From contig CM055108.1 of the NCBI GenBank assembly GCA_029204225.1, positions 18,943,779 to 19,007,778 of the forward strand: DNA of 64,000 bases, read 5' to 3'. The DNA is from Diphasiastrum complanatum. Lineage: Eukaryota > Streptophyta > Lycopodiopsida > Lycopodiales > Lycopodiaceae. Shown here one piece after another: positions 13,077-31,432 of the stretch (positions are counted from its first letter, which is position 1; every line of letters starts with the position of its first letter). The translations under genes and the position numbers were made by a program. A model generated the notes under the pieces. It saw only the letters and a list, made by a program, of their open reading frames with translations. It was not told where the DNA came from and searched no databases.

Positions 13077-13998
<922 letters not shown>

Positions 13999-18229: not shown

Positions 18230-18307
<78 letters not shown>

Positions 18308-22197: not shown

Positions 22198-24672
22198 AAT
22201 GCTCGTCCTTCTTATCCCCAAAAAATACAAGGCAAAAAATATGGACGTGTATATGACTCCCTTGATAGATGAGCTAAAGATTCTATGGCAAGGAGTTCAA
22301 GTGAGTGATATATCAAGACCACTGAGACAAAGAGATTTTGTCGTAAAGAGGATCTTGATGTGGACGATGCACGACATTCCTGGCTATGGGGAATATTCAG
22401 GTGAGATATCCTTGCTATTGGTTTGAATCATGGTATTATATTAAATTTTATGTGCATTCAAAAATTTTCTTTCAAATCAAACATTGGACTCATGATTAAG
22501 TTGGTTGTTTTGTCTCAATGTAGGGCTCCAAACTAGTGGTTACACTGCATGTCCCGTTGTGGTGAGTATTTGCAAGCACGTTAGTCACAACATCTGTGAA
22601 AGATGGTTTATGAGGGCCACATTCGATACCTTCCACCCGATCACCCTATGCGTGATGGGCTTGTTGGCCAACGTCCTCATTCCATGAAGGTACACGACAT
22701 ATTTGGCCAATTATTGGTACATGTCATTTATTTATTTTATGATTACTCTCTTTATGTTTCTTCTAACTATATATAATCTGCATTAAATGTGTGAGCTTGT
22801 TTGTTAATACTAACACGTATGTCATTGTTATTCTCTTTCTTATGAAGATACATTTCATCCAAAGAGATACCGCTGGCATCCATTGAGGCGACAAGACAAA
22901 GCTCCATCAAGGCAGCGTGTTTGATCGAAAAGCACATTCCCACATCCATTCTCACCATTCAAATGCATCTCATTGTGCATTTGGTAGATGAGGTGGCCAT
23001 TGTAGGTACATCATCTACTTGTGTCAATTGCCTATTCTTAGTCTATCCTAGACTATTGCTATTGTGGCGTCACTAACATTGATTCATTTTTTTTAATTCG
23101 AGCACTGTCCATAGCCGTTGGATGTTTTTCTTGGCACGATTCATGAAAACATTGAAGTCCTTCGTAAGACAAAGAGCAAGGCCTGAGGGTAGCATGGCGG
23201 AAGGATGGCTAGTGCAAGAGTCCATGGTTTACATCACGGAGTTCCTTGCTCATAACGATCCTTCTATTCCTCGTCTTTGGGATAAGAAGTACGATGAGCG
23301 TGTTGTTGGGAAGGTTCCTCATGTAAAAGGAGCGATCATTAGAATGAGTGAGTCCTTCAGAGAGAAGGTAAATAAGTTTTGCATTCTTAATAGCGAGGAA
23401 ATGCAAAAGTGGATTTCACTATACAAAGGCTCGTAGACAATCCGTTCGAGCCACTTTCAAGAGAGGACATAGAAGACAACCATATCCACCTAACCTTGCC
23501 CTTCTACCCAAGGACATGATGGTTGATTGGTTGGATGATGCACTTAGAGAAGCCTCGGCAAACAACCGGGAAGTAACAGAGAGAGAGCGGGAATATGCAA
23601 GGGGGTGCAATTTACATATAAGCTATGATGATCAACATTCACATGTTTATTAATACGTGCAATTTTATACATGTTTTTTGTATTCCTAACACATTTAGTT
23701 CCATTTCATTCAATACAAAAAATACAATGCACTGTGGACACATGGACGACACTTTCGTACGGAGCACATTGACAAAAATAGAAACACGTACGATTGTGGA
23801 GTCATGGCAAATTTTACCCAAGAGAGTCGAGCAAGCACGACGGACACCAATTTACTCTCTTCTCAGCTTGATTATTGTGGGACAATCAATGACATCCTCA
23901 AAGTTGGATTTAGGCAATTTAGCTTTTTCATATTTGATGTCAAATGGTTCAAAGTTATTTGCAATGGTGCGAATGCAACTGTCAGGAAAGATGAGAGTGG
24001 TTATTTTGCCATTGACTCTACCAAGTTTTGGATAGATCAAAGCGACACATTTGTTTTTCCGCAACAATGTGAGCAGGTACATTTCTTCTATGTCTTCAAG
24101 ATGTCTATGTTCTTTTGTTGTCCATCAATCGATTTTCAGTGTACTGCAAAAAATGTATACTGTGTATAGTAATACGCAAGCAACTGTAACATAGCCATGA
24201 ACACTAACTACAAGTCAACGTTTATGGTAACATCGATCACTTGCAGGTGGTCTTTCACCCCGATCGTTTAGATCCTAGATGGTGGTACGTGATTCAAGTC
24301 GCTCCTCGAAGTAAAATTATTTTTGAAGATAGAGATGTCGTGGAGGACATGGCGCTGCCAGTTGATGCACCTCATGAACAAGATCGTGATGACGGATTCA
24401 ATGACACAATTTCGGTGGATGTTCATGTGCAAGCTTCAGAAGCTAATGATGACGTTGAGCGTGATGCATCATCGTCGGATGGTTCGACGACAAACGACAC
24501 ACTTTCACGATCTCACTCGTCGTCACTATCGCCATTAGCTTTTGAAGATCAGCTTATTAATGATGAAGCTATAGGAGATATTTGGGTAGAATTAGAGATA
24601 GACTCATTTGGTTTGGCAGATTTGTCGCATGATGATGTGGCAAATGATAACGATGAACCACCAAATGAATGA
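22198..24672 (+). pseudogene. CACTA transposase (TNP2, DUF4218, DUF4216 domains)
   Basis: Spliced relic. Exon 22198-22400 holds the TNP2 motif NMDVYMTPLIDELKILW; intron 22401-22523 (GT-AG) joins to exon 22524-22689, making the classic GEYSGLQTSGYTACP across the junction, then KMVYEGHIRYLP after a frameshift. Exon about 22848-23005 encodes IQMHLIVHLVDE and exon 23104-23610 encodes RWMFFLARFMKTLK and ARPEGSMAEGWLVQES (DUF4218). Exon about 23755-24076 (CGVMANFTQ, DYCGTINDIL) joins by intron 24077-24246, phase 0, to 24247-24672 (WWYVIQVAPR, DUF4216) with an acidic tail and stop at 24672. Frameshifts near 22595 and 23427 and a weak acceptor at 23102 indicate a dead gene. TNP2 cuts the element at its tips in active relatives. 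Confidence 0.87.
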
Positions 24673-24967
24673 GTGAGATAGTACGATGTATTTCAATTCA
24701 TTGCAATATTAACCATATTGCTCACAGATGCAATTACACTTTATTAACTGACTAGTTGACATCAAACAAGAAGTTGATGCATGTGAGTACACAGTTTGTG
24801 ATCATCATTTTTTTGTGATACATAAATTTCTTTATTCACTTGTGCATATGGCAACCAAAGTTGATAGAAAATGGAATTCAATGTGTTGATAGGTAACAAA
24901 TTCCAAAAGTGAGATCCATTTACATTCTATTTTATACGTGGTTTATACCAAGGGGCCCTTTTTTTCA

Positions 24968-25220
24968 CCAGTCTCGGTATTCCCCTCAGTTAGCAGAGTA
25001 ACCTGGAATGCCTCTGGCCACCTGGACCCTCTTTATAGCCCTCTCTATAAATGTCTCAAAAACAAGTGCAAATTTGGTAGGCTTATACCAACGTCAACCT
25101 CGGTATACCCCTCAAATTAGCTTCAATATTCCGATGTATGTTCCGAGGCCTTCTACTGGATATCCCTCTCTATAAATGTTTCAAAACCAAGTTCAAAGTT
25201 GGTAGGCTTATTCCAAGGCC
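24968..25220 (+). repeat. CACTA subterminal tandem duplication
   Basis: Two related blocks of about 125-130 bases, each with CTCGGTAT.CCCCTCA, then CCCTCTCTATAAATGT.TC, then TTGGTAGGCTTAT.CCAA. CACTA elements usually carry short repeated transposase-binding words here; GTTCCGAGGC and ATTCCG words occur between 25130 and 25250. Confidence 0.75.
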
Positions 25221-25319
25221 AAATACCGGACCCGAGGCTTGAGCATTCCGCACCTCCCACGACTCATTTAAAAACTATCTTTCAAAGAAACGCTAAAAAA
25301 AAGCCTTGGAAATCGCCCG

Positions 25320-25332
25320 TCCTCTTGTAGTG
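25320..25332 (+). repeat. CACTA 3' terminal inverted repeat
   Basis: Reads TCCTCTTGTAGTG, the complement of CACTACAAGAGGA. Matches the conserved CACTACAA-type terminus. The partner at the 5' end is absent from the window. Confidence 0.85.
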
Positions 25333-25819
25333 TCAACATTGGATGCTGATTCTAAGGAAGATATGCCAGTTGACTCTGATGAAGAAGACGTGTCTTGCAT
25401 GTCATTAGCTGAAAATGAGTGTGTTTAGAATATGTCAAGTTATGAATTGAGAGGCATTAGTGAAAAATCCTTAGAAAATGTACTTTGAAAAAAGAATATG
25501 TAATCATAATTTAAGCCCTTTTCTATTTTACTAGGATTTGGAGTTTCAAAAATCATGTGTTGTCTTGAATGTTATTTCATTTCTAATTATGATGGTTTTA
25601 TGAAGTTTGTGAAAAAAAAATTGTAGTGCTTTATTAAAAATATGCATTTTTGAAAAAAAATAATATAGAGATCAAATAAGAAAAAACGATGATTTTGGTG
25701 CCTAAAATTAGGTAATCTAAAAAATACCAAAAAAGCTTGTTCTTTTTTAGGTCAAAGTTCCAAAACAAATGTCATCGCGTTAATTAGGAACAAAATGATG
25801 TGAAATCCATCAATCATAA
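25333..25819. other. AT-rich region without a recognised gene
   Basis: The first 90 bases read openly as an acidic peptide (KEDMPVDSDEEDVSCMSLAE) resembling acidic spacers in copia gag, but it is too short to assign. The rest is AT-rich with A runs. Confidence 0.4.
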
Positions 25820-26297
25820 AGTATAGAGAATGATCATATTCACTTTCAATGAATTCAAACTAATAATAGTTTTCTTAGTAGAAAAAAGACACTTTATATG
25901 CTTTAATCTTCTCACTATATCCAACAAATATGTATTTCTCTAATTTAGAATCTTCCTTAGATCTATTTTTCAAAGGAACATAAGCATAGCAAGTACATTA
26001 AAATACTTTCACATCATATGCTTCTTATCATAAAGAACCTCATAAGGTGACTTACCATCAAGTGGATCTACTTTAATGATAGTTAGCATAATTGATTGCC
26101 TCACCCCAAATGTCAAAGGAACAAATGCATCCAATCTAAAGAGCTTTAGCACACTGACAAAGTGTTTAATTATTCCTTTCATCCACTCCATGTTTTTGAG
26201 GTGTCCTTTACAAGAACGTTTCCTTAGAATCCCATTTGCTTCACAAAATGCAATAAGATCTTTGAAAATATATTCATCTCATTATCCTATATGACAT
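25820..26297 (-). pseudogene. Element L integrase C-terminal relic
   Basis: On the minus strand, fragments include FDIWGEAINYANYH, DGKSPYEVLYDKK, CTCYAYVPLKNRSKED and KYIFVGYSEKIKAYKV, matching the region after the catalytic Glu and the integrase C-terminus. Several stops and frame changes. The upstream part (26298-26660) has only weak copia-like words. Confidence 0.75.
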
Positions 26298-26683
26298 GAC
26301 TATCCCTGAAGGTAGTGCTAGTTATCTAGACCCTTCAGTCAAAAAGAGGCCCAAGAAAGAGTCATGACTAAATTATTATAGGAGTCTAGTAAGCTTTGCA
26401 AAAAAGTCATAATGAGATCTTCATGATTTTGTTTTTTGGAGATCCAATTATCGACAGTTAATCTAGAAGTGAGCAAATGTACTTTAGAATTATGTTTATG
26501 CTTCATTTGTTTTCATCTTTTTTTTTTTAATCTAATAAATGGTCTCATAGTGACATCTTGGGTCTTAAGAACATTTACTATTTTCCGCATGTCAAAATCC
26601 TCTCCATGAATCTATCAATGAGTCTTATTAGATATATATTGAACTCTAAAGTCTCCTAGTATTGTAGACTTGCTCTGATATCG

Positions 26684-27165
26684 TAGGGTAGTAGGTAATT
26701 GGTGTAAAATAGATTTATGGCAATCAAGATCATACAACGATGGAATCCTCTATATAGAAAGCAAGATAGCAAGACTAAATAAACTTAAAGCACATTCACG
26801 ATCAATTCAGTTTTCAACTGCATAGGTACACCCACCAAGTGTTAGACATTTGCTTTTTATATTGCATAGTGCAAACCGTTAACGAAAATTTCATGACAAT
26901 AAAGAATCTAGAATAGTGTAAACATCATTCGCACGGATAGCTACCAAGAAGAACTAATCTAATCTCAATTTTATAACTTATGATACTAAACAATGAATAC
27001 TCCAAGCATTCTTCAAGTAGCTACGTAATTCTCTTACTCCTACTAGGACCCTAGTTTCCACTTTAGTCGGCTAGCTAGTAGTGCTCTAAACCTTGTGGGA
27101 CTAACCACTCCTCTAGTCATGCTTTTGATTGAACTATGGTGTTTGGATTATGTTGATTTTCAACA
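26684..27165 (-). repeat. Element L 5' LTR
   Basis: About 480 bases, starting with the tip TGTTGAAAATCAACA on the minus strand and followed by a primer-like site CGATATCAGAGC at 26672-26683, against TGGTATCAGAGC. The inner end before this site lacks a clear CA. Confidence 0.62.
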
Positions 27166-27540
27166 AATGCAGGCGATATTATCATAGTTAGTCACATTGC
27201 TCGGCAAAGTTGCTCTTTCTATGAGTTAGTAACATTTCATGCTCCAAGTTCAGAAATGTATTCAAAGAATATCTTTCTGTTGTGCTGAAATACAATATGA
27301 CATACACCCATTGAGAATAAAGATTCTATTCGTGACCATCGTAGAAGTTTCTCTAAGAACACGATCTAGTAAAAACACCGGCACTTAGAACATCAGAGTA
27401 ATTCCTAAAACTTTGCATTTGTTTATTAATGCCTCTAACAAAGTTCCACGGCTTCAATATTATGATCATGGGTATAAAGATCACTAGTAAATTGAAAGCG
27501 AGAGCGGTAGACTTCTGCACTTTTCATAGAGTACTATTAG
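27166..27540. other. Downstream flank of the host gene
   Basis: No gene or repeat recognised. It follows the stop codon of the minus-strand gene and so should include its 3' untranslated region, up to the LTR of element L. Confidence 0.45.
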
Positions 27541-28325
27541 TCAGTTGGAAAAATCCACCATTTGTACTTTGTTGATGAGAGATTGAGCATTGAGAAGACG
27601 GTAATTAATATCTTCATTGAGGGAGTCAATGTTGCGGACTGATTGAATCTCCTCTTCCCACTTTTCGATCTGTTTCTGATGCAACCTGTGGAGTCTGCAG
27701 TTAAGTAGCAACTGTTTAAACTAATTTTTTCATCCATAGCAAATGACGACAAGATTTGAATGACATATGGTATACCTCCATGTGTCACCAGGTCACATGA
27801 TATTTTATGAAGTACATCAAGTTACAACAAATGCATGCTTCTCAAGTTGAGAAAACTCTAAAGCCAGATATCGTGTAAAAACGAGGAAGAGGAATAGAAA
27901 TAAAAAGTCAGATTGTTACTGGATCTAAAAATTCACCAACTAGACCGTTTACAGGGAATAAGGTATGAATCATTGTTAAGGGAAACACGAAAGCGCCTAC
28001 CAACTAAAGAACTTATGTGATTGGTATGTTTGTCTAATTATTACAATATATTCCTTATTTTCGTGGTAGTTTCTTCTCGTCCTTATTCTTAACTTATTTT
28101 CAAGATCAATTTATGAAAGCTAAAGTCGCTCGATTGGATACTGTACAATAGACTCCTCGAAACCATTTGCTATCTCCAAAAAGAAGCTTTTTCCTGCTTC
28201 AAGCAAGCCTGAAACCTGCAACCAGTCACCAGGGTAATCTAAGATTATATAGAACCCGAAATGCCATTCACTAAGAAGACATGATACCTTAATAAAATGA
28301 GCACATCCTTGGGTCCTGTTGCACC

Positions 28326-28415
<90 letters not shown>

Positions 28416-29426
28416 TTTTGCTTGTTGAGAATCCTTTTATGCAAGGTAACGCATATCCTACATACTACAACAAGTCATGAATATTATCTTATAAAAACTG
28501 CAAACTATAACTTGCATGAGCAAAAGCATGAGTGATAATTTGGAATTCGCTTGGTTTCTAAATATTCATATTTTTGACCAATATCTATTCTTATTTCCAT
28601 GGCAAGAAAGCTAGCTTTTCATGTGATGGACAATCACAAGAGCACCATGTACATGTCATGTACAGTTATACTTGCTTACTATATGCCAAACTTACACTTA
28701 ATTAAACTATTGGTACTTTTCAGTGGCACCAAGATAAAAGCTGTAATGTTACAATATGTTTCTAAATTCTGGCTACACATCATACAATATACTTATCTTT
28801 CATGTCTATTCACCTGCTGAGTGAAATTGTCTATTTTTTGTCTGATCAGTTGAATGCTGCCTTCTATAGCATCCGATCCAACCCTATGTTCTTCATGCCC
28901 TTCATTTTGCGCTTCGTCATCCTCGCTGCAAGTATATTTCGCTGTTTGTTGTGTATCTTGATCGTTTGAATGACCATGGTTCTGTCTTGTTCTATAATCC
29001 AACATCGGATTTTCCATCTCCTTTCCTCCAGACTCAATTGTAGTTTTCATTCGCGACCATGGTTCCCCTTCTGCCTGAAACCCATGTCGCTACAAGAGAA
29101 AAAGAAACAAAAGTCCAGAACGATAAAGGCCGTGCGGTGCATCAACAAGAATAATTCAACCTTTCACGAGAAGCTCATGTTTTTCGCTGAAAAGTTTGCA
29201 AAGTTTGTTACAGTCAGACATATCATGAAAATGTAAGCGCTGCTTGACAAGAAATTTAAACACTCTACGTCTAAGGATAAGAGACCAGTACGCCTGAGAT
29301 AAAGGTAGAATGTTTAAAAAAAAAAATCTCATAAATGTTTTTAGCTTACAACCTGTTTCCTTCGCTTCAGTGTCGAATCGAATGATGTTCCTTCAGTTCC
29401 CTCTTCCATTATTTCCAGATATGTAA
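27541..29426 (-). CDS. Spliced host gene, 3' part, unknown coiled-coil protein
   Basis: Four exons with GT-AG borders and matching phases: 29426-29353 (74 nt), 29089-28814 (276 nt), 28215-28142 (74 nt), 27685-27541 (145 nt, TGA stop). They encode TYLEIMEEGTEG...KRRKQ, an acidic, Gln-rich middle (NDQDTQQTAKYTCSEDDEA, IRQKIDNFTQQ), VSGLLEAGKSFFLEIANGFE, then LHQKQIEKWEEEIQ and NYRLLNAQSLINK. The last junction is phase 2 and joins FEESIVQ to LHQKQ without a gap. No stop or shift interrupts the 569 coding bases, unlike every transposon nearby. The FxxELANxFEE...HKxQIEKWxEEI pattern seems familiar from conserved plant proteins, but I cannot name it. The first exon listed begins with two bases of a split codon, so 5' exons lie further right and were not found. 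Confidence 0.7.
28327..28412. repeat. (TC)43 microsatellite
   Basis: 86 bases of pure TC in the intron between the second and third listed exons of the host gene. On the gene strand this is GA-rich and not part of the splice sites. Confidence 0.98.
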
Positions 29427-30528
29427 CTGATATCTAGCTGGTACACGGGAAAGCATTAGCTTTATACATTATAAATAATCAGTCACTGACACTTGGAAAA
29501 CCATTCTGAGGATCTTAGCACGTTTCTGGAAAAACATTGTAAGCATTGAAGTCCTGGGGACGTATTCAGAAAAACGAACGTCTCGGGACACTTTCTACTT
29601 ATCCTTCTGTCGAAAATGCTTCATCAAGATTAAACTTCATATGAAAAAGTCCTTGAGTTTTTTTAACGATATGGAAGAAGAGCCGCATAATGAAAATAAA
29701 CTCAAAAGAATCACTAAACTGCTCAAAAGCCATGAAAATAAAGTCAAAAGAATAACTAAACTGCTCAAAAACCATGAAATCGAGAGAACAAGGACTAAAT
29801 AGCAGTCATTTGCACAGGGAATGCCAAATTTGTCGACCACGACTCCCTGTGCCATACATTGCGTAACTGGTCAATCCATTGTATACCTTTTACTTATGAT
29901 CAACTTGCAAATCAAACTGTTTGACGACCTTCCGAACACCTTTAGCACCGAAATAAATGAATCATTGCTAAGCTACGGTTTACATTTGTGAGAGAATCCT
30001 ACGTTGAAATTTCACAAAATATTACGAATTCGGTATCCTATTCCTCTTGCGAATGTATCTTTTATCTTCAATCGGTGACTTCACGATTACCATCTTCTAG
30101 TGACACGTTTATTGATCCAATCCCCTCGCACCTCCAGCCCGTTCACACTATAAAAGAAAAGAAATTTCCTGTTTTTATTAATAAAAGATGAATAAAAGAT
30201 GGGGAAACTCATAGGAGTACAAAGTGTAAAGGCCATAAAGCAAACTAAGAAGCATCATAGTTCCGGAACGCGAAAGGAACGACGGTTCCGGAATGAATGA
30301 CATTTTTTGAAAAAAAAAATTGCGGAACCATATAAAAACATCTTTTTCTTTTTTCATGTTGTTTTTTTATTTTGGACCGGGGGGGGGGGAATAAAGTACT
30401 ACATTAAAGCTCTTTTGAATAGGACAACTTAAGGTCCTCAAGCAAATACTCTGAGATCTTCATGAGATATGTTGCCCACTATGTTGTTTGCTGGCTGCTT
30501 GATAGTTTTGGAATATATTTGAGGTGTT
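29427..30528. other. Upstream part of host gene, exons not resolved
   Basis: Should contain 5' exons or promoter of the minus-strand gene. One candidate exon on the minus strand (about 30149-30093) follows TTTCTTTTATAG and reads VNGLEVRGDWINKRVTRR before a GTAATC donor, but its phase does not fit the 29426 exon. An 11-base G run lies at 30379-30389, and two TTCCGGAA palindromes occur at about 30260-30300. Confidence 0.35.
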
Positions 30529-31432
30529 GAGTATACAAATTGGGCTGAGAAGCAGACAGGCAATAAGTTGAAGCAAATTCGCACATATCGTGGAGGTGAG
30601 TACATTTCCAATGAACTCAAAGCTTACTGTACCGATCGAGGTGTTATGCATACGAAGACTGCATCTTACACACCTCAGCGCAATGGAATAGTTGAACGAA
30701 GAAATCGTACACTTATGGAAGCTGCTAGGTGCCATATGTATCAGGTAGGACTTTGATACCCCGTCAGGACAGGGATTTGGAACTCAATTGCCTTGAAAAA
30801 TGACTCTGCCTGCTGGTACCAGGTCTGCATCTCTGTAATATCTAATTTGCACAACTGGATGTTGAGCTTATTAGCATCAGGGTCGTAAGAACTGGAACTG
30901 GGGTTGGATGACATGGTGATGGCTCATGCGAAAGCACCAAAATAGTTGTGGGCGGAAGCAATGGCCACATCGAATTCTAAAATCTCGAATACCGGATAAA
31001 ACTCCTCATGAGATATGGTGGAAGTCGAAGCCAAATCTTGCACATGTTTGGATATTTGGATGCACAGTTTATATGCACATACCAGATAAATTGAGAAAGA
31101 AACTCGATGAAAAGATAGAACAAGGTTTTCTGGTAGGATTCGAATTACATTTGTCATATTATCGAGTCTATGTACCCGAAATTGGCAAAATAAAAGTTGT
31201 TCGAGATGTCAAATTCGATGAGTCAAAATACATAGCAGACAGTGATTTAGTCGGCTATGAAATTCTCAAAAATTATTATGAGCTACCAACGATAGAAGTA
31301 AAACAAGCAGAAGATGAACGAGAATTACCAGATTCAAAGGGAGTTCAAGATCAAGTACTTGACAACTCGAATCACCAGTTCGAATTCCAACAGAAATGGT
31401 CGTATCCGAAATCGACTCAAAACCACCTGTGA
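30529..31432 (+). pseudogene. Element E integrase
   Basis: Starts at EYTNWAEKQTGNK in the core. The second catalytic Asp is Tyr (IRTYRGGEY, 30580-30606), while the Glu is kept (GIVERRNRT). After HMYQVGL the frame is interrupted by an inserted block (30757-30925), then resumes with WAEAMA and DKTPHEIWWKSKPNLAHVWI to the C-terminus (GFLVGFELHLSYYRVYVP). It ends at a TGA (31430-31432) in the Glu-rich linker. Confidence 0.88.
30757..30925 (-). other. Foreign open fragment inserted in element E
   Basis: Splits the integrase frame of E. On the minus strand it is open from ATG at 30914 and reads MSSNPSSSSYDPDANKLNIQ, then ITEMQTWYQQAESFFKAIEF, with no stop to the insert edge. It looks like the N-terminus of a gag-type or other protein, but I do not recognise it. 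No target duplication was seen. Confidence 0.5.

Follow-up and report, generated by a model that had tools for sequence, protein, structure and literature searches.

The four short minus-strand blocks in the window, by which we mean the whole 64,000-nucleotide stretch of Diphasiastrum complanatum DNA analysed here, very probably represent exons of a genuine small plant gene that is present in two copies. The account in which we place high confidence is that of a low-copy nuclear gene in which three introns separate four coding exons; it is predicted to encode an acidic protein of 183–184 amino acids, and its third intron is probably of the U12 class. An initial annotation had described the four blocks as having GT-AG borders, matching phases and one stop-free frame, and its coordinates and joined reading frame are confirmed: the blocks measure 74, 276, 74 and 145 nt (569 nt in sum), the inner borders are all GT...AG, and a single joined frame is open as far as the TGA that ends at 27541. 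The joined open reading frame extends from an ATG at 29409 to this TGA, and whether it holds 183 or 184 codons is set by the choice of donor for exon 1.

All features of the gene model lie on the minus strand. The coding part of exon 1 (29353–29409) ends at the donor CAG/GTTGTA after 29353 (the slash marks the exon border), with an alternative donor after 29350; intron 1 (29090–29349) is 260 nt long with the latter donor and 263 nt with the former. Exon 2 (28814–29089) contributes 92 codons of polar and acidic character, and its U2-type acceptor and donor score well. Intron 2 (28216–28813) is followed by exon 3 (28142–28215; 74 nt), in which the presumed helical C-terminal part of the protein begins and which ends at a GTATCC donor. 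Intron 3 (27686–28141; 456 nt), the candidate U12-type intron, opens with GTATCCAATC and carries the branch-like CTACTTAAC before its acceptor, and exon 4 (27541–27685) supplies the remainder of the C-terminal part and the stop codon, with an alternative acceptor at 27694, 9 nt upstream. Stops are present in both of the other frames of the coding part of exon 1 (one in each), of exon 2 (four and six) and of exon 3 (one in each), and exon 4, which in the true frame has only its final TGA, contains three stops in one of the other frames and none in the third. The initial annotation began the first block at 29426, but the acceptor proposed there scores low with our splice matrices (0.96), and an in-frame TAG lies upstream of the ATG at 29409; as such, exon 1 has no obligatory preceding intron, is probably the first exon, and further 5' exons are probably not needed. 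Introns 1 and 2 would be removed by the ordinary spliceosome. Intron 2 contains a (GA)43 microsatellite (28327–28412), one of the long perfect GA/TC runs of the window, others being found at 13306–13459 and 18232–18304.

We regard a second copy of the gene as the decisive evidence for the predicted structure. The window lies on contig C17 of a genome of 1.74 Gb, assembled as 5176 contigs, and exon 2 has one other match in that genome, 93% identical, on contig C14. The paralog found there (G000:C14:3879025-3880937; L003 4226-6138) has four exons and 184 codons, with the ATG, the intron positions and the stop as in the window gene, and the two proteins are identical in 168 of 185 aligned columns. 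Exons 1–4 are 96.7, 95.2, 97.3 and 95.2% identical between the copies, and introns 1–3 are 90.4, 89.0 and 88.4% identical. When gap-free aligned sites are counted, with exon 1 ending at 29350 and the GA repeat (28320–28420) excluded, 25 of 549 exonic sites (4.6%) have diverged versus 125 of 1146 intronic sites (10.9%; Fisher p = 9.4e-6). The exons differ in length by one gap of +3 and one of −3, both in exon 2, exon 4 being gap-free; gaps in the introns vary widely in length. This comparison is independent of any gene-finder model, and by it the gene structure and the second copy are demonstrated, along with constraint upon the predicted exons. The proposal of the initial annotation, that a spliced host gene lies among transposon remains, is thus borne out by two loci, by the contrast of exon with intron divergence, and by exon gaps that keep the frame.

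The paralog also informs the borders of the gene. The two donors after exon 1 lie 3 nt apart and are nearly equal in score (3.26 and 3.16), but the paralog reads GCAAGC in place of the GTAAGC after 29350 and keeps the donor after 29353 as CAG/GTTGCA, and the latter is therefore favoured. A TATAAA at 29461–29466, 57 nt before the ATG, and an AATAAA downstream of the stop (27422–27427) could be taken for a TATA box and a poly(A) signal, respectively; neither is conserved in the paralog, and we rejected them as support for the gene on that account.

At the level of codons, the evidence for constraint is less pronounced. Fifteen codon changes between the copies alter the amino acid and ten are synonymous, the NG86 estimates being dN 0.035 and dS 0.097 (dN/dS approximately 0.36). 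A neutral simulation predicts 18.7 changed residues against the 15 observed (P = 0.064), and 71% of its runs acquire one or more stops, where the real copies have none. The strength of the evidence lies in the exon-intron contrast, dN/dS being marginal by itself. This proportion of amino-acid changes is what might be expected of a recent pseudogene pair, in which the exons were constrained until lately and at least one of the copies has since fallen silent, and the C14 copy carries an 86-nt insert (L003 4129-4214) directly before its start codon. Both copies are nonetheless fully open with the ATG kept, and the insert is flanked on either side by GACATCTAATAATG, so that the repeated target takes in the ATG itself; we consider such a pair unlikely. 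The insert resembles a tRNA-derived SINE by eye, reading GGCTCAGTTGG...GGTTCGAGC on the reverse strand, and together with the different contig and the GCAAGC after exon 1 it distinguishes the paralog from the window gene.

The two copies share a block of 2.9 kb comprising the gene and its flanks (26775–29704 in the window). As the introns were kept, the pair did not arise by reverse transcription, and genome doubling or a small duplication may have been its origin. A comparison of 264 kb of C17 with 90 kb of C14 gave 70 matches of at least 100 nt, of which 14 passed a repeat filter and three of these were the gene. The longest of the other 11 blocks (91%, 3.4 kb) contains Ty3/gypsy-like pol reading frames by eye, and the remainder include one 76% block in collinear order; no collinear neighbour of the gene was proven in the stretches compared. 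At the upstream edge of the duplicated block, a 42-bp unit is present in two copies, 93% alike (29690–29773).

Coding signal was also assessed with a small home-made Viterbi gene finder, whose codon scores were trained on the transposon reading frames of the window and whose splice matrices are approximate. The joined frame has a codon score of 20.5 versus 4.2 and 10.6 in the other two frames. In a first run (25700–30500, GA repeat unmasked) the program returned exons 1 and 2 and then a different third exon, 28464–28120, which crosses the GA repeat. With simple repeats masked, the donor threshold lowered and GTATCC donors favoured (a change made after intron 3 had been noticed), it returned all four exons, the last acceptor being placed 9 nt further upstream at 27694, with a score of 11.8; under the same setting the highest score was 5.7 among 300 one-strand shuffles and 4.3 among 26 tiles of the window that had been reversed or complemented. 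Further controls comprised 1000 two-strand shuffles for each setting of the splice prior. At a prior of −5.5 none of the 1000 equalled the score of the real sequence, whether or not the GTATCC bonus was applied, and without the bonus the predicted chain stops in exon 3 at 28120. None did so at −7 either, but there the best chain was a lone piece of exon 2. The codon score of exon 4 is ordinary, being matched or beaten by 4541 of 14106 open placements of the same length. The shuffle statistics favour a gene around exons 1–3, and the call of exon 4 hinges on the type of the intron before it.

That intron is probably of the U12 type, as judged from its sequence elements. Its GTATCC donor is poor as a U2 site (0.32) and agrees with RTATCC in both the window gene and the paralog, although it is without the usual T at +7 and +8, having A at +7. 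The U12 branch consensus is TTCCTTAAC, usually about 10–16 nt before the acceptor, and CTACTTAAC, which matches it at seven of nine bases, stands 14 nt before the acceptor of intron 3. Over its first 22 bases the intron is identical in the paralog, where ACTTAAC is found 11 nt before the same CACAG even though the surrounding bases have shifted. The window shows no excess of the full U12 signature, with three such donors in its 128 kb (both strands) versus 3.4 in shuffles, and the shuffle expectation of 0.0026 per 96-nt exon is a guide only, having been computed for a signature looked for after intron 3 was seen. Among known plant introns, those of the U12 type listed in PMC7367187 start with GTATCC, and Table 1 there gives a rice intron of this type as TCAACA/GTATCCATCA...TTTTTCTTAACT; since that intron begins GTATCCATCA, there is precedent in the class for an A at +7. 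Intron 3 is thus like plant U12-type introns in its GTATCC donor with A at +7, in its CTTAAC branch element and in a phase other than 0, and it departs from the consensus in two of the nine branch bases, the likeness being one of sequence. It would probably be removed by the minor spliceosome.

The same element bears on the end of the intron, where tandem acceptors, TGCAG and CACAG, lie 9 nt apart (27686–27694), both in frame and both with AG in the paralog. The gene finder chose 27694, and the paralog, having AG there also, favours neither. The distance from the branch element is 14 nt in the window and 11 nt in the paralog for 27685, and 5 and 2 nt for 27694, which is too near for a U12 branch given the usual range; this spacing, and only this, favours the predicted acceptor at 27685, and the upstream AG could still serve otherwise.

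It is conceivable that a real gene ends in exon 3, at the stop at 28120, and that block 4 is a neighbouring or alternative exon. This is the structure preferred at a prior of −5.5 in the absence of the GTATCC bonus, the ending is intact in the paralog too, and the unexceptional codon score of exon 4 accords with it. Exon 4 is, however, 95.2% identical and gap-free between the copies, where intron 3 is 88.4% identical, and the paralog retains the U12-like donor together with the branch element and the acceptor, such that we hold the shorter gene to be improbable and retain the four-exon structure.

The surroundings of the gene are rich in transposons. Pfam was applied to 20 of the 40 long reading frames listed for the window, and 11 gave a family match at E <= 0.001, these being domains of copia type and related ones (reverse transcriptase, integrase and gag among them), an aspartyl protease (RVP_2) and DUF659, the last below its own cut-off. 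At about 30755–30910, some 150 nt that read MSSNPSSSSYDPDANKLNIQLCKLDITEMQTWYQQAESFFKAIEFQIPVLTG on the other strand break up the remnant of a copia integrase on the minus strand; the interruption is perhaps a captured exon, and Pfam gave no match to it. At 23622–25628, reading frames resemble by eye the DUF4216-type end of a CACTA element, for which Pfam gave no confirmation, and they are followed by a 63-nt direct repeat (25035–25222) and two TTGTAGTG motifs (25325–25332 and 25621–25628). The count of this motif in the window is unexceptional, being equalled in 15 of 100 shuffles, and the four-exon gene lies outside the ends of this CACTA-like element.

A search of the whole 1.74-Gb genome with the protein, in which all 25 of 25 first-look candidates were scored and from which very divergent copies could escape, gave nine matches at E <= 10. 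Eight are the four exons at each of two loci, and the ninth, on contig C3 (E = 1.1, 30%), we took as chance; a TAG within both exon 2 matches is the last codon of the preceding intron. Given that only two loci were matched, we assign the gene to the host and not to a transposon, a two-copy gene being unlike the usual gene of a transposon. The competing proposition is that the gene serves a DNA transposon as an accessory, or was captured by such an element (CACTA, MULE or Helitron). The CACTA-like frames and the two TTGTAGTG motifs (the former recognised by eye, the latter not enriched) lie some 2 kb away, and a duplicated block of just 2.9 kb with no proven collinear neighbour is what would be expected of a gene that moves by itself. 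Against this stand the count of two loci genome-wide, inverted repeats around the gene that are short and 72–80% alike, duplicated block ends in which no terminal motif was seen by eye, and an open reading frame that is complete and not a fragment; around the gene we found neither flanking terminal inverted repeats nor high copy number, and we judge a transposon origin to be quite improbable.

Strongly disfavoured, and in our estimation highly improbable, is a chance chain of open GT-AG-bordered blocks in AT-rich non-coding DNA, for although a lenient prior of −4 allows 12 of 1000 shuffles with the GTATCC bonus and 52 without it to reach the real score (the best chain there overran the gene), and the amino-acid changes taken alone are compatible with neutrality, the zero of 1000 shuffles at −5.5, the exon-intron divergence contrast, and a paralog that keeps the start, borders and stop with frame-preserving gaps all argue against it.

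The protein predicted from the four-exon gene has a basic start containing KRRK, a polar middle and a more hydrophobic C-terminal part, with hydrophobic residues at 36 of the 88 positions from 93 to 180 and at 17 of the 92 before them. The C-terminal part is probably helical. The initial annotation had remarked on its coiled-coil look, and this stands locally, the best heptad contrast over 28 residues being equalled by 44 of 2000 shuffles, but not as a single register over residues 93–180, which 1400 of 2000 shuffles equalled. The KRRK-containing start suggests a nuclear location, and we infer that the product is most likely a small nuclear coiled-coil protein working by pairing with partners; the gene would be transcribed, and the C-terminal helices would mediate the pairing.

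Relatives of the protein were sought in several ways. Pfam searches with the joined protein, its parts and the paralog gave only matches below the cut-offs, to THOC7, Tup_N, DUF3306 and MAJIN, and a search of PDB sequences at E up to 10 gave two weak matches, the best with E = 0.27. Pattern scans matched four times in viral contigs and 34 times in genome contigs, with a relative confirmed in none of them, and peptide words from the protein matched nothing in the papers searched. The likeness to THOC7 (PF05615) is weak (E = 0.084 for the whole protein and 0.026 for the C-terminal part), and with 13.6 and 15.3 bits, respectively, versus a curated cut-off of 28.7 we rejected this assignment. No homologue was found beyond this genome in these searches of Pfam, the PDB and the viral and genome contigs.

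One tentative and rather doubtful reading of the product is that of a small nuclear coiled-coil protein of the plant lineage for which no curated family exists, perhaps a rapidly evolving protein of meiotic chromosomes of the type of SCEP1/SCEP2, with its C-terminal exon joined by a minor-spliceosome intron. SCEP1 and SCEP2 are described (PMC12283363) as small coiled-coil proteins of the plant synaptonemal complex. The likeness is general, to small plant coiled-coil proteins by description only, and serves as no more than a lead. If this reading were true, the full-length protein would depend on U12 splicing.

Without invoking any such role, the gene is of an ordinary kind: small, low-copy, given no family by Pfam or the PDB, and with a likely minor-class intron. 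A true four-exon gene could be recognised from the letters alone in transposon-rich plant DNA, including the exon that lies behind an atypical intron, and that same exon was dropped at one setting by a simple gene finder of the U2 type. As such, the gene serves as an example of how conventional splice models may truncate a conserved C-terminus.
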